IMG/VR virus record: IMGVR_UViG_3300046804_003306
Coordinates: 1 to 40,716 of that record
From: a virus
DNA: 40,716 nt
Strand: one strand, 5' to 3'
In this document: in pieces, positions 17,167 to 29,028 of the stretch
Position numbering within the stretch: the stretch's first letter is position 1
Layout of the letters: every line of letters starts with the position of its first letter
The notes under the pieces: generated by a model
Told to the model about the DNA's origin: nothing
Database searches by the model: none
What the model saw: the letters and a program-made list of their open reading frames with translations, nothing else
Program-made: the position numbers and the translations under genes

Positions 17167-19551
17167 ATGTTTGCACACGAATTATACGAACAAAATAAAC
17201 CCCGTGTTGTTGTCACTTACCCAGGGCGTTTTCAGCCCTTTCACCAAGGACACGCAGGGGTTTTTGCACAACTGCAAAAGAAGTTCGGCGCCGAGAATGT
17301 TTTTGTTTTAACCAGCAATGATACTAGCTCAGCTAAAAGCCCGTTTAACTTTTCCGACAAATATCAGCTTATTACAGCAGCAGGAGTGCCCGGCAATCAT
17401 ATCATTGAAACAAATAAAATGTATGCGTTGCCCGAAGCGTTTGATCCTGTCAAAACAATTTTTGTCACGGCCGTGGGCGCACCAGATGCTGACAGACTAA
17501 ATCCAGACACAGTTACAAAACGAGATCAAAAAGACAAAGACGGTAACATAGTCAAACCTGCAGGCAGTCCCAGCTACTATAAAGTATGGAATGGTGTTAA
17601 AGACGCAGTGACCGCAGACAAACACGGTTATGTAGTTGTAATACCCGAAATTAAAAAATCAATCAAAATCAAAGGCAAGAACTATGATGTTAGCCATGGT
17701 ACAGAATGTAGAATGCTTTGGAATCATATTAGAAAAAATGCCAAGGCTAGACAAGAATTTCTCGGTCAGATGTATGCAAGACCCAGTGCAGAAATTGCTG
17801 CTATCTATGACAAAATTCCCGAAACTGCCAAAGAAGATATACTGCCCGACAATGCCAGCACTACTAGCCCCATTCACGGTAACATAAATGAAATGGGCGG
17901 CGTGGGTGTTATAGCCAGTAAACGACAAGCTAAAGATCCAAGATACAGCATGAGTCTTACAAGAGATGTAAGGCCTGGCGCAGTACAAAAAAGTCTAAGA
18001 GCTCTTAGACTGGCCGAAGATGACAGCGACAACCAAATTGCCCTAGCTGCATTAGACTTTTATAAACATCAAGTTGGATCCGTAGAGCCTGAAAAAGTCG
18101 AAAACTATAACGACAAAGCAAAGCAGTTGCTGGCCAAAGCAGACCCCAGCATTAAGGCACAGGTATTAGATGCACTTAAAAAGGGCAAGGAAAATCCTTA
18201 TCTTCAAGGCGGTATCATTACCACAGTAGCATCATTAATAGCAGGTGGTGTTATTGCAAGTGCTCAACACATGCAGTTAAATCCAACACAAACTAATATT
18301 TTGTTGCAGGCCATTATGAATACCATAGTGCCCACTCTAATATCTAAAATTAATGGTAAGAGTTGGTTAGACACTATCAAGTATACCTTGGCCAGTGCTG
18401 GTATAGGCACAGGCATAGCCGCAGTAGTTGAACAAGTGCCGCCCGTGGCAGGCAGAATACCAATGTTTACTCCGCCTGGTATTAAATCACCGCAACAACA
18501 AGCAGCAGCCCAGTTAGGTTATGGCGAGGAAGAAGAACTACAAGAAAAGTGGACTAAGAAATATAAGAAAAGCATCAACTGTAGTAATCCCAAAGGCTTT
18601 AGCCAAAAGGCGCACTGTGCTGGCCGTCGTGCAAGACAAGCAGGCAAAAAAACTAAAAGTCACAGTATCAGTGAAAACCTAGGTGATTTTGAAATACATA
18701 ATTATAAAAAACTAGACAATGTGCTAGTTAAATTGTGTGAAATGGTTATACAAGGACAACAGTCCGGCAAAGACTATGGTATGGTAGCAGCTTGTGTAAT
18801 CGATCCCGATGACAACATTGTGTTTGGTATCAATGTACCAGGTCAAGATGGTAAACGCATTCATGCAGAACACGATGCAATGGATCGTTATACCAGCAAG
18901 TATGGTACTATACCAGATGGTAGTATTATTGTTACTACTCTAAGTCCTTGCAGTGAACCAATGAGTGAACGAGATGGTGCCAGTTGTACAGATTTAATTA
19001 ATCAAACAGATTGCCACAAAGTCTATGCAGGCTATAGAGATCTTAGTCAGGAATATAGTTTTAAAACTTGGCATTTAGAAATTACAAGAAATAATAAAAT
19101 TCAAGCACTCTGCAAAAAATTTGCAGATACTTTCCTTGACAAGATAACTGAAGACCAAGACACTAGCATCACTGCTGAAGAAATGGAAGACATGATTGAA
19201 AAGTTTTTGCCCTTAGCAGCCAAAGAACTAGCTATAGAAAAACTGCCACACGTTATACTACAAAAAGAATTAACACCACACGACGGACAAGCAACTTTTG
19301 GCCGTTTTGTTGATAAAGAAGAACGCATTTATTTGGGCATAGCCAATAGACATCCTGTAGACATACTGCGTACATTGGCTCATGAATTGGTACACTTCAA
19401 ACAATTTTTAAATGGCGAAATGTATCACGGTGCTGGAGATACAGGCAGTCCAATCGAAAATGAAGCTAATGCAGTAGCAGGCGTGATCATGCGTCACTTT
19501 AATAAAAAATATCCCGATGCTATTAAAAGCAAGCCATTGGAGTTACAATGA
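17167..19551 (+). CDS. Five-part fusion: nucleotidyltransferase, membrane-like, basic module, deaminase-like, metallopeptidase-like
   Basis: 794 residues. Residues 1-200: HIGH nucleotidyltransferase of the NadM/NMNAT type (GRFQPFHQGH at 20-29; SHGTECRMLWN near 177-187). About 345-430: two hydrophobic stretches (ITTVASLIAGGVIA; TLASAGIGTGIAAVV). About 455-505: a basic Cys module (SINCSNPKGFSQKAHCAGRR, then RQAGKKTK). About 518-628: deaminase-like, with HAEHDAMD (H567) and SPCSEPM then SCTDLI, the RibD-like zinc pattern. About 690-790: zincin, LAHELVHFKQ (H739, E740, H743) and ENEANAVAG with a likely third ligand. No family with this whole order is known to me. It starts behind a late promoter, so it is probably a virion-packaged multi-enzyme, comparable in idea to T4 Alt. 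Confidence 0.75.
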   Translation: MFAHELYEQNKPRVVVTYPGRFQPFHQGHAGVFAQLQKKFGAENVFVLTSNDTSSAKSPFNFSDKYQLITAAGVPGNHIIETNKMYALPEAFDPVKTIFVTAVGAPDADRLNPDTVTKRDQKDKDGNIVKPAGSPSYYKVWNGVKDAVTADKHGYVVVIPEIKKSIKIKGKNYDVSHGTECRMLWNHIRKNAKARQEFLGQMYARPSAEIAAIYDKIPETAKEDILPDNASTTSPIHGNINEMGGVGVIASKRQAKDPRYSMSLTRDVRPGAVQKSLRALRLAEDDSDNQIALAALDFYKHQVGSVEPEKVENYNDKAKQLLAKADPSIKAQVLDALKKGKENPYLQGGIITTVASLIAGGVIASAQHMQLNPTQTNILLQAIMNTIVPTLISKINGKSWLDTIKYTLASAGIGTGIAAVVEQVPPVAGRIPMFTPPGIKSPQQQAAAQLGYGEEEELQEKWTKKYKKSINCSNPKGFSQKAHCAGRRARQAGKKTKSHSISENLGDFEIHNYKKLDNVLVKLCEMVIQGQQSGKDYGMVAACVIDPDDNIVFGINVPGQDGKRIHAEHDAMDRYTSKYGTIPDGSIIVTTLSPCSEPMSERDGASCTDLINQTDCHKVYAGYRDLSQEYSFKTWHLEITRNNKIQALCKKFADTFLDKITEDQDTSITAEEMEDMIEKFLPLAAKELAIEKLPHVILQKELTPHDGQATFGRFVDKEERIYLGIANRHPVDILRTLAHELVHFKQFLNGEMYHGAGDTGSPIENEANAVAGVIMRHFNKKYPDAIKSKPLELQ

Positions 19552-20948: not shown

Positions 20949-21368
20949 ATGAAAAGTTCACATTTTTTAGGCGAAAACTTTGTTGAAGACGCACATTCTG
21001 TGCATCAAGACCACGAAGTGCAAATGGCTCGCGAAGAGCTTTATCATGCAGCAGAATATGCGCTAAGACTGCACAAACTTTTACGCAATGTAGATGAATC
21101 ACAGGGTCTAGAAGGTTGGGTCAGCAGCAAAATTACATTGGCCAATGACTATCTTAAGACAGTTTTAGAATACATGGAATATGAACTAATGACTGCACAA
21201 GATGCGGGCAGTGAACAAGTATTAGCTGTGGCAGAAGACAGCCAACTACAAGAAATGACAGCAGGCAGTGTTGCCACTGTAGTAAATCCTACACCAAAAA
21301 ATAAAGCTAAAACAGGTACACTGTTCGGTGGAACTTATCAGCAAAAAAAGCATAAAGGTAAAAAGTAA
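20949..21368 (+). CDS. Helical hypothetical virion-type protein, 139 aa
   Basis: Begins MKSSHFLGENF, a short hydrophobic-ended opening like the other proteins of this block (MRASEFV). Residues 20-85 are helical and rich in His and Glu (YHAAEYALRLHKLLRNVD, VSSKITLANDYLKTVLEYM). The C-terminal part has QLQEMTAGSVATVVNP and a Lys-rich end (KKHKGKK). Coupled to the next gene by TAATG and behind a late box. No enzyme motif; probably a head-associated structural or cargo protein, by context only. Confidence 0.55.
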   Translation: MKSSHFLGENFVEDAHSVHQDHEVQMAREELYHAAEYALRLHKLLRNVDESQGLEGWVSSKITLANDYLKTVLEYMEYELMTAQDAGSEQVLAVAEDSQLQEMTAGSVATVVNPTPKNKAKTGTLFGGTYQQKKHKGKK

Positions 21369-24352
21369 TGTCTTACAAAGGGTTTTTGGATTATTTGAAA
21401 GAAGCCGAGACAAAACTAGCTGAACTAGTTATGCCTAAGCCAATTCCAAGACCTATCCCACGACCCGGGCCAAGGCCGGTTGAACCAAGGCCTGTTGAAC
21501 CCAAACCTAAAATTGATCAACCAAAACCAGGTGAAGCTCCTACAAGACCTACAGAACCCGTACCCGGTGAACCTATTCCACCGAGACCTGCAGAACCTAA
21601 ACCTGCAGAACCTAAACCTGCAGAACCTAAACCAACGGAACCTTCAAGTATTAAACCTACTCCAGTGCCTGTGCCACATAGTCCTGAAGAGCTTGGCACT
21701 ATGCCCGAACCCCAAGTAGTTCCGAAACCTAAGCCCGACGAAGTTACACCTAAAGAACCAAGCCAAAAGCCGATACCAATTCCCACTGGGGCAGATGACA
21801 AACCTTGGCGTTGGTATAAAGGAACTATATGGCAACCAGGTGGTACCAAATGGTCAGACAAAGTAATTGACTCTGACCTAAAAGAAAGTGATTTTACATA
21901 CATGAGCGACATACAAAAAAGTTTGTTCATAATCGAAACTATGTCCACAGCAGAAAAGAAACCAACTGGTCCAAAGTTTCCTGGTTACTGGAAAGGCACA
22001 GACCCTGCCAGTGCTGCAAAAAATAAAATGGTAGGCGGCAGCGAAGAACAACAAGAAAGTGTACTAGGTGAACTAGACAAGGCCGCAAAAGATTCCGTCA
22101 TTCGCCGTACACTGGAAGAAAAATTTAAAGCTTTCAAAGAACAAGACACAGCAACTAAACCAGTAGAAGGACCTGGAGGAGCAGCATTTGGAGTTTATCC
22201 ACAAGCTATTTCTAAAAAACCAGCAACACCAACAACTATGGATCCGAAAGATATTGATCCTTCAGCTATTGCTATGGCAGTTCCCGGCTCAGTTGGTCTA
22301 GCAGCTCAGTTAGCAACCATATCTCCAGAGTTGAATAAAGGCGAAGAGGAAGCACTTAGAAAAATTCGTCAACAGGCTGGTATTCCTGAACCAAAACCAG
22401 CAACCGCTGCTGATCACATTGCGGCTATTCGCAAAGCAGAAGCAGATCCATATAGTATGACACCGCCCGGAGCTAAAATAGCTGCTAGCGGTCCGTTGAC
22501 TAAAAGTGCAGATGTTGCTGCCAGTACAGGCGCAAGTGCTAAAACAGAACCTGAAGTAAAGACAGCGCCACCAGCAAGTCAAAGTCCAGCAGAACTGCAA
22601 GGACTAGATGTCAGCGGAAGAAAAACTGGAGCAACTGATCCAAGATCGAGTACATATGGTACTACTGCACCAACTGCTGTGCCTGAACCTAAGTCTGCAG
22701 CATCAGCTGCACCTGCAGTAGCAAGACAACCTGTGACACCACCTGCCGGTGAAGGACTTGTAGGCAAAGAACTAGCACAGTATGGTATAAGCAGAACAGC
22801 CAGACGAGATCAATCATTTGTAGACAAAGAATTGGGCGCAGGCTACAAAGCAGGTAGTGCAGAAGCAAATTTAGCATTGCTAGACAAATATCAAAAACAG
22901 TCAGGTAAACCTGCACCAACACCTGCTCAACCTGCAATAGGATCTAGTGCTAGAATTCAGACTACTCCTTCCAATGCTGTAGTTTCAGGATCAGGACAAC
23001 CTGTTACAGATACACAAGGTAGACCCGTTACATCTGGTGGAACGACAGATGCAGATGGCAGGCCAATCCAATTGCCGCCAGCGTTTGCAGCTAAACCACA
23101 AAAACAAACTGCATTCAATCCAGAACAAGATAAAGAATATAGAAAAGGCATGGGTCAAAGAGAAGGACTAGGCCGTTATGACACAACTTTTGGTGATACT
23201 ATAGACAAAGATGGCAATTTAGTGCATAAGTATATGCCGCCACCAAAACCAATTACCGACATGACCATTCAAGAATTGCAAGCATGGCAAAAAGAACGCA
23301 GTGCTAAAGACAAAGGCACTGGCGCAGTGGGTATGTATGGTTTTATGCCCAGTACTATAGATGAATACAGTAAAAAAGCTGGATTAAAACCAACAGACAT
23401 ATTTAATAAAGAAGCACAAGAAAAAATCCAAAGTGCTATCATGGCAGATCAATACAATACACTACAACAAAATGATGTTCCAATCAATGCAGGCACTATG
23501 TATATGGCACACTATCTAGGATCACAGGGTGCAGTAAGGGTAATGAAAAACGCAGACCCAAATCAAACAGTAGTTGATGCTATGATTGATCCAAAGTATA
23601 AATCAAATCCTGAAACTTACCAAGCAGAAAGAAATAAAATCTTACTGAGAAATCCAGAACTGGGAAAAATTAAAGCTGGTGATTTTGAGACAGTTTTGGC
23701 AAATAGAGTAGCACGAGGGCAAATGACAGCTCAGCAAAAACAAGCACAACAAGGAACACAAGTAGCTATGAGAGAATCCGACAATAAAAAAGTTGCTGGT
23801 CGTTACAGTTATGACGAGTTTGATGACATGATTGATAGACTGCGAGTTAAAGCAAAAGAACAAGAAAAGAAACATGGACCAGTCGATCTCGGCAAGTTAA
23901 TGCAACGTTTGCGTGACATTGACGACAAAGACAAAAATGTAAAAGAAGAAGAATCGCCCAATATTGCTACTAATCCAACAATGCAAGCAACAGCTGCGGC
24001 AAGACAAGCCACAAACCCTGCACTACAAGATACACAGGCAGGTATGCAGGCCACCAGTCAAGCAGGCACAGTACAACAGCAGCAACAGAGGCGAGACCAA
24101 GCCATTGACACTAGTACAGCAAGAGGTGTTGCAGATACTATTGCCAGTGTTGCTCCTCCTGGAACTAATCCAGATGTACTTGCACAGGGCATAGTAAATG
24201 CCAACGATGGCAAGCCATTAAATATTCAACAACAAAAGGCTATGAGTACAATAACACCATTAGTACTGAAAGCAGCAGAAACTCCAGTGGCTGCAGGAGC
24301 ACTTAAGACAGCACTGCAACAAGCAGGTATATTAGCCAAGCAAGGAAAGTAA
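21368..24352 (+). CDS. Proline-rich protein with lysozyme-like (transglycosylase) domain, 994 aa
   Basis: Residues 20-140 are a Pro/Glu/Lys stretch (repeated PAEPK, PRPVEP) forming an extended spacer. A Trp-rich spot follows (KPWRWYKGTIWQPGG). A long low-complexity Ala/Pro/Gln region fills about 160-600. Residues about 625-760 look like a lysozyme/transglycosylase fold: GTGAVGMYGFMPSTIDEYSK (651 onward), with E643 a candidate catalytic residue, then AGTMYMAHYLGSQGAVRVM and DPNQTVVDAMIDP. The end is helical and Gln/Ala-rich (about 830-994). Very long spacers and a wall-cutting domain suit a virion protein injected to open a path through the cell wall, as in T7 gp16 or T4 gp5. The fold is moderately supported, the role inferred. 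Confidence 0.65.
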   Translation: MSYKGFLDYLKEAETKLAELVMPKPIPRPIPRPGPRPVEPRPVEPKPKIDQPKPGEAPTRPTEPVPGEPIPPRPAEPKPAEPKPAEPKPTEPSSIKPTPVPVPHSPEELGTMPEPQVVPKPKPDEVTPKEPSQKPIPIPTGADDKPWRWYKGTIWQPGGTKWSDKVIDSDLKESDFTYMSDIQKSLFIIETMSTAEKKPTGPKFPGYWKGTDPASAAKNKMVGGSEEQQESVLGELDKAAKDSVIRRTLEEKFKAFKEQDTATKPVEGPGGAAFGVYPQAISKKPATPTTMDPKDIDPSAIAMAVPGSVGLAAQLATISPELNKGEEEALRKIRQQAGIPEPKPATAADHIAAIRKAEADPYSMTPPGAKIAASGPLTKSADVAASTGASAKTEPEVKTAPPASQSPAELQGLDVSGRKTGATDPRSSTYGTTAPTAVPEPKSAASAAPAVARQPVTPPAGEGLVGKELAQYGISRTARRDQSFVDKELGAGYKAGSAEANLALLDKYQKQSGKPAPTPAQPAIGSSARIQTTPSNAVVSGSGQPVTDTQGRPVTSGGTTDADGRPIQLPPAFAAKPQKQTAFNPEQDKEYRKGMGQREGLGRYDTTFGDTIDKDGNLVHKYMPPPKPITDMTIQELQAWQKERSAKDKGTGAVGMYGFMPSTIDEYSKKAGLKPTDIFNKEAQEKIQSAIMADQYNTLQQNDVPINAGTMYMAHYLGSQGAVRVMKNADPNQTVVDAMIDPKYKSNPETYQAERNKILLRNPELGKIKAGDFETVLANRVARGQMTAQQKQAQQGTQVAMRESDNKKVAGRYSYDEFDDMIDRLRVKAKEQEKKHGPVDLGKLMQRLRDIDDKDKNVKEEESPNIATNPTMQATAAARQATNPALQDTQAGMQATSQAGTVQQQQQRRDQAIDTSTARGVADTIASVAPPGTNPDVLAQGIVNANDGKPLNIQQQKAMSTITPLVLKAAETPVAAGALKTALQQAGILAKQGK
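21587..21631 (+). repeat. Three perfect 15-bp tandem repeats (PAEPK)
   Basis: CCTGCAGAACCTAAA occurs three times in a row, coding for Pro-Ala-Glu-Pro-Lys, then a decayed fourth unit. It lies in the proline-rich spacer of the 994-residue protein and probably arose by slippage, allowing rapid change in spacer length. Confidence 0.8.
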
Positions 24353-24353
24353 A

Positions 24354-27300
24354 ATGTTTTTAGCGGATTTATATAACAACAAGCGACTATCGGAAAATAT
24401 TAGTCCCATTGACTTGGCTGAGATGTTATTTAATGGTTTGATGCAACAGTATCCCGAAGCTGTAAAACGATATGGTCACGAAGTTGTTGGCGATGCTGTC
24501 ATGAACTATGCGGAAGATGCTGAAGACATTCGCAGTATGAGTGATGTTGACATTGCTATACAGGAAATCATGGATGACTTGGCCAACTACCGTGGTGACA
24601 GAACTAATGAACTCGAGCCTGACGGTGAACTGCCCTTACAAGAAGATCTACGCAAGTGGTTTAAAGAAAAGTGGGTTCGTTTTGGACCTGATGGCAAAAT
24701 TCGTGGTGCATGTGCCAGAGGCGATGATAGTGAAGGTAAGCCAAAGTGTTTGCCACAGGCTAAGGCACACGCACTAGGTAAGAAAGGTCGCAAGTATGCG
24801 GCTGCTAAAAAGCGTAGAGAAGATCCCAATCCCGAGCGCAGAGGCCCTGCTAAGAATGTTGCTACAAAGAAAAAGACAAATGAAGGTGTGACGGAAGGCT
24901 CTACCAGTCACGCAGAACTAGCTAAGTTGGCGCACGATGCGTATGTGGCAGCAAGTCGCAAAGGCAATGGTCCAATGGCAGCTCACTATCTTAAACAGTA
25001 CCTGAAACACAAGGATGCTGCTGCTAATGCTGCTAAGGCTGCTAAGGATAAGAAAGGTGTGGCCGAAGGCTCCGATGAACTATATCAACAGGCTATTCGC
25101 AAATATACACAACGAGTTGCTAATGACTATTTAGGCGGTGGCAATGCTCACTTATATGGTGCTAGCAACTTTGAAAGTGAAATGTTCGGAGTAGATCCCA
25201 AACAAGCACAGCAAGACTTTGATAAATTGTTCCCGCAATATCTAAAGAAACTGCAAGGTGGAGAGCAAGGTGTGGCGGAAGGCTTGAATGAAATGGATAA
25301 ATCAGCACCACAACCTGGTCGTGATGGTAAAGTAAGCCACAGCACCTACGGTTCAAGAGACAAGCAAAGTAATGCCGGCGGCGAAGAACACACGGCTAAG
25401 GCTGTTACTGCTAAACAAACCAGCAAGGACGCACTTAATATTCTCAAGAAGCAAGGTGTGGCTGAAGGTCAACTTGACAGTTCAAAGATAATTCGACAAT
25501 TGGCAGGTCCCGAAGTTCCAATTTACAATGATAAAAAGGGCAGTGGTCAAAGACAATACAATGTCATCGGTTGGACCCTAGACCATTACAAAGCAGCAGA
25601 AAAAGCACTGGCCAAAGCTGGATATCAAACCAAAATCTTAGGCCCGTTCAAGGACAGAGGAAATTTATCTACCTATAGAATAAGAATTTTACCCAGTGAA
25701 TCTGTAGCGGAAAATAAAAGTGTAATCCCAACTGAAGATACATTGGCAAATGTTAAAAAACTTTGGCAATTCATCAAAAGAAATTTATACGACCTAACAA
25801 GTGATGCAAGTTTTCAATACGATCATTACAAAAAACCATATGTAGATAAACGTCTTACTAATTTACTTAAAACAGCAGACGGAGCTCCAATTACAATTGC
25901 TTTTGATATTAAATCTGATCTACAGTTAAAAAATGATATTTTATACATTCCAATTGGCCTAATGTGGCAATATCGTGCAGTATTTGATGCTTCGACCTTT
26001 ACTAAAAAGGTAATGGATTTATTAAGCGGGCAACCGGCTGTAACAGAAAATGAACAATCTACAATGCAGGAAAAAACTATGTGCCCCGAGTGTGGTGGTC
26101 CTGCATTCAGTGACCTTATGCTAGCAGAAAAACAAGACGCTTGCTATCACAAAGTAAAGAGTCGTTATAAAGTATGGCCCAGTGCTTATGCATCGGGTGC
26201 GCTAGTACAGTGTCGCAAAAAAGGTGCTGCTAACTGGGGTAAAAAAAAGACTAACGAAGCCAAAGAATCACCCACACAAGACTATCAAAAAATGATGAAC
26301 TTTGTGCAGGCACAGAGACTGTCTGGTGTACCTCCCGAACAACAAGTGGCTGTAGCACTGTTCAAAGAGTTAGAAAAAACCAAAGCGTTCAATAAGGAGT
26401 TAGATGCTGAACTTAAGGCAGCAGAAGAAAGATTGGGCGTTAGTGCTAAACAAGGAGAACTAACTGGTCAAGAACTATCTAAGCATCGCGGCGAGTTAGA
26501 AAAAGAAAAAGCAGCTAGTGCTAAACAGCGTGCTGCAATGGGCGACTTTGAAAAAGTAAGTTATGCGCGTGAACAGGCCAGCAATAGACAACTACAGGGC
26601 TTGACCCAAAAGCTAGAACAGTTAAAAGCAAAACCTGGCATTGATCCTGCGGCCACAGCTGCGTTGGAAAGACAAATTGCTGAGCTTGAACAAAAAATGC
26701 AGGACCGTCAAGGCACAGGCGTTGCAGCTGATAAAATTGCAGAACTGGAACGAGCTATTGCTGATGTACAAAAAGGCGAAACTGTTGATGCTTCAGCTAT
26801 CGAGCGATTAGAACAAGAGTTCAAAGCTGCAGAAACTGCTGCACAGACTGCACAAGCTAAACTTGGACAAGTAAAAGACTATGAAAGTCAAATTGCTAAG
26901 TTAAATGCAGAAGTTGATAATTTAGAAAAAGCTGTTGCAGGCACTTTAAAACCTGAAGTAGATAAACTTGATAAGCAAGTTTTTACTCAGGGTAATTTAT
27001 TAAACCAAGTAATACAAAAAACGAATGTTCCAGCTAACATTAAGAATGCACCAGACTATGCTAGAAATTTGGCAGATGTTGCCAAAAAACAATTGCGTAC
27101 AACCAATCAAAAACCTATTGTGCAGAATCCTCAAATGCAACTGGATCTTCCTGTAGATCAATCAGTTACTGAAACAAGATTCTACTTCAATGCAAAAGCC
27201 ACACTAGCTGAAACACTACGCGGAGATTTCGCAATGACGCAAGACAGCGAGGGTTGGTATTTAACAGCAGCTCAAGGTTCTACTAAATTTCTAGAAGCAC

Positions 27301-27449
27301 AACGAGCATTTGGTATACCTAAGGTAAAACAAGTTAAACTAAAAGAAGTTAGAATTTCGGACTACACAGGTCGTGCCAGTACAATAGGTGATGAAAACGC
27401 TACTAGTCCAATAGGCAGTTTACCACACCAAGGACGCAGACCCGCATAA
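24354..27449 (+). CDS. Giant modular protein with GVAEG linkers, 1031 aa
   Basis: Starts with MFLADLYNNKRLSENIS behind AAGGAAAG. In order: a helical acidic N-domain (about 15-98); basic Cys module 1 (RFGPDGKIRG, then PKCLPQAKAHALGKKGRK, about 105-150); four segments cut by GVTEG (178-182), GVAEG (235-239), GVAEG (306-310) and GVAEG (368-372), with VAEN at 451; a small alpha/beta domain (about 373-450); a Tyr-rich domain (455-560); basic Cys module 2 (CPECGG 577-582, DACYHKVKSRYKVWPSAYAS from 595); a long coiled coil (about 660-880); and a final domain after VTETRFYFN. No catalytic motif is seen. The linkers resemble T4-type prohead-protease sites (hydrophobic-x-Glu, cut before Gly or Ala). 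Probably a head cargo or scaffold-like polyprotein; unrecognised as a whole. Confidence 0.65.
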   Translation: MFLADLYNNKRLSENISPIDLAEMLFNGLMQQYPEAVKRYGHEVVGDAVMNYAEDAEDIRSMSDVDIAIQEIMDDLANYRGDRTNELEPDGELPLQEDLRKWFKEKWVRFGPDGKIRGACARGDDSEGKPKCLPQAKAHALGKKGRKYAAAKKRREDPNPERRGPAKNVATKKKTNEGVTEGSTSHAELAKLAHDAYVAASRKGNGPMAAHYLKQYLKHKDAAANAAKAAKDKKGVAEGSDELYQQAIRKYTQRVANDYLGGGNAHLYGASNFESEMFGVDPKQAQQDFDKLFPQYLKKLQGGEQGVAEGLNEMDKSAPQPGRDGKVSHSTYGSRDKQSNAGGEEHTAKAVTAKQTSKDALNILKKQGVAEGQLDSSKIIRQLAGPEVPIYNDKKGSGQRQYNVIGWTLDHYKAAEKALAKAGYQTKILGPFKDRGNLSTYRIRILPSESVAENKSVIPTEDTLANVKKLWQFIKRNLYDLTSDASFQYDHYKKPYVDKRLTNLLKTADGAPITIAFDIKSDLQLKNDILYIPIGLMWQYRAVFDASTFTKKVMDLLSGQPAVTENEQSTMQEKTMCPECGGPAFSDLMLAEKQDACYHKVKSRYKVWPSAYASGALVQCRKKGAANWGKKKTNEAKESPTQDYQKMMNFVQAQRLSGVPPEQQVAVALFKELEKTKAFNKELDAELKAAEERLGVSAKQGELTGQELSKHRGELEKEKAASAKQRAAMGDFEKVSYAREQASNRQLQGLTQKLEQLKAKPGIDPAATAALERQIAELEQKMQDRQGTGVAADKIAELERAIADVQKGETVDASAIERLEQEFKAAETAAQTAQAKLGQVKDYESQIAKLNAEVDNLEKAVAGTLKPEVDKLDKQVFTQGNLLNQVIQKTNVPANIKNAPDYARNLADVAKKQLRTTNQKPIVQNPQMQLDLPVDQSVTETRFYFNAKATLAETLRGDFAMTQDSEGWYLTAAQGSTKFLEAQRAFGIPKVKQVKLKEVRISDYTGRASTIGDENATSPIGSLPHQGRRPA
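24882..25469 (+). repeat. Dispersed GVAEG-coding repeat, four copies
   Basis: An 18-base near-repeat, consensus RAAGGTGTGRCNGAAGGY, starts at 24882, 25053, 25266 and 25452, all in one frame, coding (E/K/Q)GV(T/A)EG. Spacing is 171, 213 and 186 bases, all multiples of three, so whole modules could be gained or lost by recombination without frameshift. Confidence 0.8.
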
Positions 27450-27452
27450 ATA
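27445..27452 (+). promoter_or_regulatory. T4-like late promoter box
   Basis: CATAAATA, 7/8 to consensus, across the previous stop. Start near 27458; AAGG at 27459-27462 can act as ribosome site for ATG 27472. Confidence 0.55.
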
Positions 27453-27471
27453 TACAATAAGGTATTGAAAA

Positions 27472-27906
27472 ATGGATGAATTAATTAAAGCAATGAAAAT
27501 TGCATTCAGCACAGAATTTAGTTTTTATTTAAAAGCACACTACTTTCACTGGAACGTTGAAGGTTCAGACTTTTTAGAATATCACGATTTATTTGGAAAA
27601 ATCTACGAAGAAGTCTACGGCAGTATTGATCCGTTCGCTGAAAACATTCGTAAGCTAGGCAGTTATACACCTGGCAGCTACACCCGATTCAGTATGCTAA
27701 GTCAAATTGAAGATGAAACCACAGTATTGCCTAAGGACCAAATGGTTGCTGAATTGCTGGCAGACAACAACAAAATCCTTAAAGTAATCAAACTGGTCTA
27801 CGACTTAGCAGAACGCGAAGGCCAACATGGTCTCAGCAACTTTCTGGCTGAACGACTAGATGCACACCAAAAGCACGGTTGGATGCTGAGAGCCAGTCTT
27901 AAATAA
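27472..27906 (+). CDS. Dps-like ferritin
   Basis: 144 residues with the Dps four-helix pattern: AHYFHWNVEGSDFLEYHDLF (22-41) then GSIDPFAENIRKLG (50-63). H26, H38, D53 and E57 stand at the same spacing as the ferroxidase residues of E. coli Dps (H51, H63, D78, E82), so an active intersubunit iron site is expected. Dps 12-mers oxidise Fe(II) with peroxide, store iron and may bind DNA; this one lacks the Lys-rich DNA-binding tail of E. coli Dps. Behind a late promoter and next to the packaged-type proteins, it could protect phage DNA from Fenton damage in the late cell or in the virion. Confidence 0.85.
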   Translation: MDELIKAMKIAFSTEFSFYLKAHYFHWNVEGSDFLEYHDLFGKIYEEVYGSIDPFAENIRKLGSYTPGSYTRFSMLSQIEDETTVLPKDQMVAELLADNNKILKVIKLVYDLAEREGQHGLSNFLAERLDAHQKHGWMLRASLK

Positions 27907-27909
27907 TTA

Positions 27910-29028
27910 ATGAACAGTTATTATTGCAGTGCTGTAGACACAGGTCTATTTGTGTCTGTTGAGGGTGGTGTTGGTGTTTGTTGTAGTGGCGATGGATATT
28001 TCGGATCGGTAAGACAACAACCAGTTAAAGATATTTTCCAACAAAACAAATTTATTCAACTGCAACAAGATTTAAGATCAAATAAACCGAATAATTATTG
28101 TAATGGCTGCTATAAAATCGAAAATACTGCTCCTGGCAGCAGTCAATGGTCAGCATTTAATGATCAATTTCCTTCAGCAAATAATCAAAGAAAACTAAAA
28201 TTAATTGATATAAGATGGAGCAATGTTTGTAACTTAACATGTCGATATTGCAACACGCATGACAGCAGCGAATGGCGTCGATTAAGAAATTTACCAATTG
28301 AATCAGTTAACAGAGATTATACAGAAACATTATTCGATCTAATAGAAGAAAACTTAGATACTATTGAATGTGTTTATTTGTTAGGTGGGGAACCTTTGCT
28401 ACAAAAACATAACATAAGACTGCTAGATATTTTACCCAAACATGTCAAAATAGATATTTTAACTAACGGCAGTGTAGACCTAAATAAAAACAAAGTCTAT
28501 GAAAAATTAAAACAGTTTAAAAACACCTATTGGAATTTAAGTTTTGATAATGTTCAAGATAGATTTGAATATGTAAGAGCAGGCGCAGACTGGAATTTAC
28601 TAAATCAAAATATAGAAATTATGAAAAAAGATTTTACAGCCAACAATGTAACACTCCATCCTGTGTACACAATATGGAACAGTACAAGACTGCGTGAGCT
28701 TTATGATTTTGCAGATCTAAAAGGAAATATGAGAGTCAATTGGCAGTTGGGTTTGGCTACTGAAGATCATATGAATGACGCCACAGACAGCTTTTTAGTA
28801 TTTGGCCACAATAAATCAGTAATTGATTTGGCTCTGCAAGAAATTGACAGTTTAGAATTTGATGATTATTTTTTAACAGGTGTTAAACAAAGTTTATTGG
28901 ACGATGTTGAAGACGCGACAAAAGGTTCGAGATTCGTAGCATGGACTGAACGCAGTGAACAAATTGTTAAACCAAAACACACATTTGCAGAACTTTGGCC
29001 TGAATTAAATAATATATTGAGCAAATAG
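27910..29028 (+). CDS. Radical SAM protein, twitch/SPASM-like N-terminal Cys region
   Basis: SNVCNLTCRYCNTHDS gives the 4Fe-4S/AdoMet motif C107, C111, C114; YLLGGEPLLQ (the GGEP motif) and LTNGS follow as in the radical SAM barrel. Before the core, residues 24-25 (CC) and C64-x2-C67 inside a segment with GSVRQQPVKDIFQQNKF look like a SPASM/twitch auxiliary-cluster module placed N-terminally, as in phage twitch radical SAM proteins. 372 residues. Such enzymes modify peptides or small molecules; no precursor peptide is evident beside it. It starts 3 bases after the Dps stop with no ribosome site. It is not a clear QueE. Confidence 0.75.
   Translation: MNSYYCSAVDTGLFVSVEGGVGVCCSGDGYFGSVRQQPVKDIFQQNKFIQLQQDLRSNKPNNYCNGCYKIENTAPGSSQWSAFNDQFPSANNQRKLKLIDIRWSNVCNLTCRYCNTHDSSEWRRLRNLPIESVNRDYTETLFDLIEENLDTIECVYLLGGEPLLQKHNIRLLDILPKHVKIDILTNGSVDLNKNKVYEKLKQFKNTYWNLSFDNVQDRFEYVRAGADWNLLNQNIEIMKKDFTANNVTLHPVYTIWNSTRLRELYDFADLKGNMRVNWQLGLATEDHMNDATDSFLVFGHNKSVIDLALQEIDSLEFDDYFLTGVKQSLLDDVEDATKGSRFVAWTERSEQIVKPKHTFAELWPELNNILSK

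Follow-up and report, generated by a model that had tools for sequence, protein, structure and literature searches.

The DNA analysed here, hereafter the window, is a single IMG/VR virus record of 40,716 bases (IMGVR_UViG_3300046804_003306, taken whole), and this report concerns the giant gene at positions 24354–27449 of its + strand. The reading frame is open throughout and encodes a modular protein of 1031 aa, which has orthologues in two of the loci fetched for comparison (L001 and L002), while the same gene occurs in another IMG/VR contig (L252; two overlapping ~12.2 kb stretches, 99.99% identical). We propose that it encodes a head-cargo polyprotein, in which unlike modules are joined by a five-residue linker, GV(A/T)EG, that could act both as a joint for module exchange and as a site for the protease of the phage head.

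All features of the gene lie on the + strand. The protein begins with a capsid-targeting-like sequence, MFLADLYNNKRLSE (residues 1–14; 24354–24395), with a predicted cut at LSE|N, for which the orthologues have LFE|N (L001) and VNE|N (L002). The N-terminal domain that follows (residues 15–177; 24396–24884) includes a basic, Cys-containing module beginning LRKWFKEKWVRFGPDG; residues 1–177 match 95 of the fetched loci, that stretch having been the reason for fetching many of them. Four linkers were located by a DNA pattern scan: GVTEG (GGTGTGACGGAAGGC) at residue 178 (24885–24899), and GVAEG at residues 235 (25056–25070), 306 (25269–25283; the exact consensus, GGTGTGGCGGAAGGC) and 368 (25455–25469). 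They introduce four modules, M1 (52 aa; 24900–25055), M2 (66 aa; 25071–25268), M3 (57 aa; 25284–25454) and M4 (77 aa; 25470–25700). M2 has relatives in L253, L254, L255, L256 and L257 and M3 in L060, L192 and L194, M4 is otherwise found only in the near-identical contig, and M1 matched none of the fetched loci searched at E 1e-5. A degenerate linker seen in the translation, SVAEN (25701–25715; VAEN at residue 451), leads into module M5 (25716–26036), for which the same search at E 1e-5 likewise gave no match. A second one, AVTEN (26037–26051; VTEN at residue 563), replaced by DVAEA in L001, precedes a conserved Cys domain (26052–26288, containing VWPSAYASGALVQCRKKGAANWG) that finds matches among T4-like cyanophages as well as in 95 fetched loci. 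The remainder (26289–27449) consists of a coiled-coil-like stretch common to L001 only and a conserved C-terminal domain common to L001 and L002, with SVTET near residue 938 (VTET at 938). The original prediction, made from the letters and reading frames alone, had pointed to an in-frame 18-base near-repeat at residues 178, 235, 306 and 368, to the later VAEN, VTEN and VTET, and to two Cys-containing domains, all of which are borne out.

The two Cys domains (residues ~98–172 and 591–655) match phrog_23735 and phrog_727/3477/38880, with DUF5872 below the cut-off. No enzymatic domain was identified in the protein by Pfam/PHROG-type matches, though it holds several unlike modules. Residues 1–571 gave a poor AlphaFold model when run without an alignment (mean pLDDT 43.9); M4 (residues 368–451) is predicted to form a compact alpha/beta domain (mean pLDDT 76), for which there was no structural match at E 0.001. 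As a mere curiosity, a T4-like Ip7 protein appears at rank 26 (E 0.047) when M4 is compared with BFVD. We place the window among T4-like phages because of the cyanophage matches of the Cys domain, the matches to a DNA polymerase (phrog_262) and two head-and-packaging PHROGs, and the major capsid protein gp23 and S77 (gp21-type) prohead protease of its relatives.

The pattern GGTGTNGCNGARGG, with at most one mismatch, occurs four times in the window, always inside 24354–27449, and in 100 dinucleotide shuffles of the window its mean count was 0.11 and its maximum 1. The linkers form part of a dispersed element: T4-like jumbo phages have the word CAAGGTGTGGCGGAAGGC in unrelated proteins, a fact that lay beyond the view of the original prediction. 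Loci were gathered by protein homology (the best 80 of 478) and by exact matches to the 18-mer CAAGGTGTGGCGGAAGGC (at least 120 stretches). Among the 265 unique copies of the core word in the fetched loci (140 loci), the frame that reads GVAEG is the longest of all six in 263, an antisense frame being longer in the other 2; when the three same-strand frames are compared, it is the longest for every copy in both sets (52 and 221). The exact spelling GGT GTG GCG GAA GGC accounts for 26 of 51 GVAEG occurrences in the homology-found loci plus the window, a set that was not picked by DNA identity, against 0.07 expected from the codon usage of the same loci, where GCG makes up 7.6% of Ala codons. 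Copies in the correct same-strand frame number 108 of 108 at one mismatch, 96 of 99 at two and 147 of 174 at three; the reversed word gave 0 matches at zero or one mismatch, 3 at two and 91 at three, so the three-mismatch copies include chance ones. One to seven copies with at most one mismatch are carried by 17 of 20 records, that of the window being among the 20 (reversed-pattern control, 0 of 20). Copy number in L002 (IMGVR_UViG_3300032288_004815) is unreliable because of an inverted duplication in the contig; the duplication, ~5.1–5.8 kb versus 13.5–14.2 kb of the locus, is probably an assembly palindrome. Conservation drops sharply beyond ~20 bases (the 18-mer set having been picked for identity). 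Chance or codon bias as the source of the word is rejected by the shuffles, the codon expectation and the frame counts. We also rejected a host origin: the 26 GTDB stretches with the 18-mer, taken as background, have one match each in loci of 53–74% GC, and the GVAEG frame is the longest same-strand frame in 16 of them and not so in 10. Among 50,697 records of isolated phages, a 30-base query at E up to 10 returned no full 18-mer, the exact runs being 16–17 bases long.

Comparison of the sequences around the linkers gives good support to the view that they are module joints, at which exchange takes place through a standard in-frame DNA word. Internal modules have a median length of 73 residues (n = 120). 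The window protein aligns with L001 (1215 aa) over residues 1–183 and with L002 (651 aa) over residues 1–204, so that alignment ends at the first linker or some 20 residues beyond it, respectively; it resumes over the Cys domain and the C-terminal domain, and the modules between differ. L001 carries a sigma-70 region 4 between linkers (E 1.2e-17; L001:10001–13645), which suggests an injected transcription regulator, and at one place L001 and L002 are set apart by a single module with one linker, 136 residues lying between the flanks. An allelic series is formed by L143, L175 and L189, whose common stretches have 91–97% DNA identity; L143 has one extra module (~100 residues) relative to L175. 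M2 is flanked by unrelated modules in L254, L255, L256 and L257, and in L253 it lies in a short independent ORF whose N-terminus is targeting-like. Contig L133 holds copies of one 45-residue module in two separate ORFs, with a further copy in L087, and L168 contains a tandem duplication.

We then anchored 90 bp on one side of a linker, used it to find partners and scored the other flank (the flank test). Where the partner lacked a strict-form linker at that place, the far flank was unrelated in 182 of 182 left-anchored and 84 of 85 right-anchored comparisons. With a linker in both, it was unrelated in 42 of 70 left-anchored and 60 of 83 right-anchored comparisons; the corresponding figures for control points in the same ORFs are 451 of 1226 and 820 of 1799, one further control pair having been classed as linker-bearing (p 2e-4 and 3e-6 for linker-in-both versus control points). 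In the clearest cases of exchange, the common 90 bp are 97–100% identical and abut unrelated sequence. These comparisons are not all independent, since near-duplicate contigs were merged only by identical context. An 18-base repeat is shorter than the word lengths in common use by assemblers, and misassembly is therefore an unlikely cause. The flank test supersedes an overall tally of how often alignments end close to linkers (396 in both versus 121 expected, of 26,560), and a single-linkage clustering that chained 262 segments into one cluster was not used for any count. The suggestion in the original prediction that the linkers are recombination points for module swapping is thus strongly supported by the flank test, the orthologues, the distribution of M2 and the gains and losses, the last of which were found in both L001/L002 and L143/L175.

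The word is dispersed, conserved at the DNA level and sharp-edged, features that would also fit a small mobile insertion that jumps into genes, for which the protein-coding palindromic elements of Rickettsia (RPE) offer a comparison. Homologue pairs at 250 linkers, compared at the protein level, matched on the left flank only in 1032 cases, on the right only in 473 and on both in 65, and clean empty sites were seen in 0 of those 65 pairs. The gap was a linker of exactly 5 residues in 46 of them and a linker-like stretch in 8 more, while the remaining 11 (gap at most 2) have negative gaps from duplicated or reordered modules. In the flank test, moreover, partner places without a strict-form linker were concordant in only 1 of 267 comparisons. 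We reject an RPE-like, module-free insertion on the empty-site result, and regard mobile insertion in general as scarcely credible.

To examine what is conserved as the word decays, we took copies with one to three mismatches that have AA before the core and in which the GVAEG frame is the longest on that strand, and thinned them until no pair had a 20-residue flank on either side in common at >60% (201 of 302 kept). Counting from a putative cut between Glu and the last Gly, P1 (position 4) is Glu in 194 of 201 and Asp in 0, the others being 4 Lys and 1 each of Ala, Gly and Pro. P3 (position 2) is V, M, L or I in 199 of 201, while P4, P2 and P1' are more variable. Non-synonymous changes at linker positions 1 to 5 number 47, 29, 41, 8 and 118. 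At the wobble base of the Glu codon, all 30 changes are silent and 0 of 30 are transversions, compared with 35 transversions among 145 wobble changes at the first three codons (p 8e-4). These counts indicate that the protein motif under selection is hydrophobic-x-Glu, and a role for the head protease is the best reading of that constraint.

The same counts bear on the idea that the word acts as nucleic acid, whether as a G-quadruplex, as a target for a recombinase or homing endonuclease, or as a translational pause. Exact DNA identity is common, and the letters of the word are compatible with a two-layer G-quadruplex (GG-TGT-GG-C-GG-AA-GG). Third-base changes in decayed copies, however, number 55 at Val and 61 at Ala, which puts wobble bases that the GG runs require among the sites that change most; because synonymous sites change freely, exact identity points to recent copying and not to a required nucleic-acid structure. 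Nearly all copies are read in one frame, no site-specific recombinase is named among the 25 commonest of 82 neighbour PHROG families (one endonuclease is), and an Rfam gathering search of 23500–28500 returned no match. A G-quadruplex requirement is unsupported, since the GG runs are often broken by wobble changes, and we consider a nucleic-acid function of any of these kinds extremely improbable. Cleavage selection could instead have kept the word by itself, the modules being old fusions that are not traded actively. The hydrophobic-x-Glu constraint would be accounted for in this way, as would the S77 protease in 9 of 20 records, but DNA identity beyond codon usage, near-identical modules beside unrelated neighbours and the gain or loss of whole modules need recent copying. 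The shared near-identical modules in particular largely refute this explanation, which we judge very improbable.

Support for release by a head protease, as the original prediction had proposed, is indirect. The same 9 of the 20 records encode both the S77 protease and gp23. The gp23 N-termini of relatives contain repeated sites (e.g., LLEG or LLES, ILEN, LKEN/LAES). One record of this set, G004, has as its closest isolates jumbo phages such as Vibrio phage 2.275.O, PA5oct and Paride (~66% identity). Under one start-choice rule for all proteins, with only identical N-termini merged, hydrophobic-x-E-[NSTAGD] occurs in the first 25 aa of 49 of 90 linker proteins versus 414 of 1810 others (p 5e-10; 146 of 623 controls of at least 250 residues). 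A second pattern resembling a capsid-targeting sequence (CTS) occurs in 44 of 90 versus 239 of 1810 (p 4e-15; long controls, 114 of 623). The window N-terminus, MFLADLYNNKRLSE|N, resembles a CTS by analogy with T4 gp24 (MAKINELLREST), gp22 (MLKEQLIAEA) and gp21, which start in a similar style. In the cited account of T4, L/I-X-E is the motif after which gp21 cuts, and processing is inhibited by Asp at position 10, the last of the IPIII targeting sequence (PMC9026906).

Several observations weigh against a role in cleavage and packaging. The window record, in its 40.7 kb, contains no match to an S77 protease or gp23, and the two were likewise not matched in 10 further records (11 of 20 in all). 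Of the 9 records with S77 and gp23, 8 carry linkers with at most one mismatch, as do 9 of the 11 without, so that no association is seen in these 20 records. Two linear records that have linkers, G012 (343 kb) and G015 (262 kb), gave no match to gp20, gp21 or gp23. Another record, G017, ends within gp20, and gp20 to gp23 lie together in T4, so a missing region is possible for G012 and G015, which might be fragments. No S78 protease was found in 11 records (the 10 without S77 and gp23, plus G004, which has both). The T4-type motif suggested by the original prediction holds for hydrophobic-x-Glu and departs in its P3 residue, Val, which is close but not identical to the L/I described for T4 gp21 (PMC9026906). 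Asp or Glu stands at P1' in 48 of the 201 decayed linkers, about a quarter. With linkers masked, [VIL]xE[NSGAT] exceeds shuffled sequence 1.54-fold in linker proteins and 1.31-fold in others, a small difference; its VIL-A-E subset, at 3.38 versus 1.29 times shuffled, probably includes degenerate linkers. Some of these N-termini were already known when the two N-terminal patterns were composed. Discordance is also frequent at the control points of the flank test, which lie in the same ORFs (37–46%), and ~18 bp is short for homologous recombination. Finally, packaging, cleavage, ejection and the recombination route are steps that we infer, as is the presence of these proteins in virions.

A rival explanation is that the linker is only a recombination joint, a short flexible spacer and standard crossover point in a polyvalent protein that works uncut. 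Nothing else is as well supported as the exchange of modules at the linker, records lacking S77 have linkers as often as records that have it, and polyvalent proteins with 2 to 15 domains have been proposed, in the passages cited, to be injected with phage DNA (PMC5512222). In a pure spacer, on the other hand, there is no reason for Glu and the hydrophobic residue two positions ahead of it to be kept when other positions vary, and N-termini ending in the same hydrophobic-x-Glu are enriched. We hold this explanation to be unlikely, though a serious competitor. The release and the recombination that the original prediction had offered as alternatives are compatible, and on our best reading both hold: with a probability of roughly 0.6, the gene encodes a head-cargo polyprotein whose linker is both an exchange joint and a protease site. 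With slightly less confidence, we favour the extension of this reading to a domain-cassette system of T4-like jumbo phages, in which the 18–20 bp word would be the exchange joint of the cargo and its in-head protease site.

The proposed mechanism builds on the dispersed in-frame word, the exchange of modules there and the protein-level constraint on hydrophobic-x-Glu, each of which is observed in the sequences. The capsid-targeting-like N-terminus would take the chain into the prohead core, where a gp21-type (S77) prohead protease would cut after the linker Glu (VAE|G) inside the head, and the freed modules would be ejected along with the DNA as separate small proteins. Because each module would be freed, module order and neighbours would matter little, and modules could therefore be gained, lost, duplicated and traded. 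Any two linker copies could recombine into an open chimera because they are near-identical over 18–20 bp and in the same frame, perhaps through the phage's own UvsX/UvsY-type or annealing recombination.

The contents of linker proteins were surveyed by a Pfam/PHROG scan of 82 of the 90. Pfam matches include DUF6321 (7), DUF7230 (4), GP88 (3) and DUF5872 (3), as well as GNAT families (up to 2 each) and a ParB-like nuclease, a 5'-nucleotidase and a cytidylyltransferase (1 each). The PHROGs (among 25 of 47 families) are mostly of unknown function, with virion structural protein annotations in 4 and 3 of the 82. A module starting YLWHGSRQ or LYHGSTQ, whose resemblance to ADP-ribosyltransferases was seen by eye only, occurs in L144, L148, L194 and L065, between linkers and also, in L065, after a targeting-like N-terminus. 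A scan of 84 of 304 candidate ORFs within 5 kb of linker genes found, among the 25 commonest of the 82 families, Dps-like (4), UvsX (1), UvsY (2) and single-strand binding (2) proteins.

In the window, a Dps/ferritin-like gene (27472–27906) directly follows the giant gene; its family, phrog_3636, recurs beside linker genes (4 of 84 scanned neighbours), and the gene may for that reason belong to the cargo set. Upstream, the genes at 20949–21368 and 21368–24352 have targeting-like starts (MKSSHFLGE|N and MSYKGFLDYLKE|A). The latter has a proline-rich N-terminal part and a weak transglycosylase match (E 0.006, below the cut-off), and a relative of the former in L002 runs on into a linker and another stretch. 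The gene at 17167–19551 is a multi-domain candidate polyvalent protein, with cytidylyltransferase and deaminase matches and, by eye, an HELVH metalloprotease-like stretch and a KKSINCSNPKGFSQKAHCAG module also seen in linker proteins of L256 and L184. A putative cytidylyltransferase is reported from S-SM1 virions in the part of that study cited (PMC3037559). Kinship of the window gene with it is unsupported: its N-terminal part matched three phage records, one of which infects Microcystis, and no marine cyanophage.

If the proposed mechanism is true, it would explain how large aquatic phages assemble and re-assort their injected proteins. Payloads for host takeover or anti-defence could be loaded, swapped and duplicated like cartridges, with the frame kept automatically. 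Protein maturation would also be tied to domain shuffling, exchange costing little once a protease separates the domains. GVAEG coded by GGTGTGGCGGAAGGC could then serve as a sequence tag for candidate injected proteins, mostly of unknown function, in the genomes of uncultured phages.

Literature searches, which reached few subscription papers, found no earlier description of the linker word among the matches listed, and the one paper there that contains GVAEG concerns HLA-E. Integron gene cassettes are exchangeable units joined by a standard DNA sequence; here, by contrast, the units are protein domains inside one open frame. The window protein is like the internal head proteins of T4 (IPI–III and Alt), compared by published description only, in its short N-terminal targeting-like sequence ending in hydrophobic-x-Glu (PMC9026906; PMC9958956; PMC5694885), and some relatives encode an S77 protease and gp23. 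As described in the portions cited, the cargo of T4 consists of single end-trimmed proteins, Alt being trimmed at both ends (PMC5694885), whereas the window protein holds several unrelated modules in one chain with a repeated internal site, which is itself a standard DNA word used for exchange. Inner-head and ejection proteins of the jumbo phages phiKZ and SPN3US are cut after x-x-Glu, sometimes in several places, by a relative of gp21 (PMC5694885; PMC9026906). The multiple cuts given in those accounts fall in propeptides at S/A-X-E or A-X-E, and the passages cited describe no exchangeable modules with DNA-identical joints. Polyvalent proteins, which are proposed to be injected and which unite numerous dissimilar domains in a single phage chain (Iyer et al., 2017; PMC5512222), bear a resemblance to the present case; GNAT, ParB-like nuclease and cytidylyltransferase domains occur among linker proteins. 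Their release is ascribed, in the sections cited, to built-in peptidase domains (PMC5512222), where the joint in linker proteins is one in-frame DNA word, the same throughout, that resembles the motif of the head protease; in the text of that paper, terms beginning "linker" and "shuffl" occur 0 times. The nearest known kinds are thus the internal proteins of T4 and the polyvalent proteins, and what appears to be new is that the internal site is uniform and doubles as an exchange joint.

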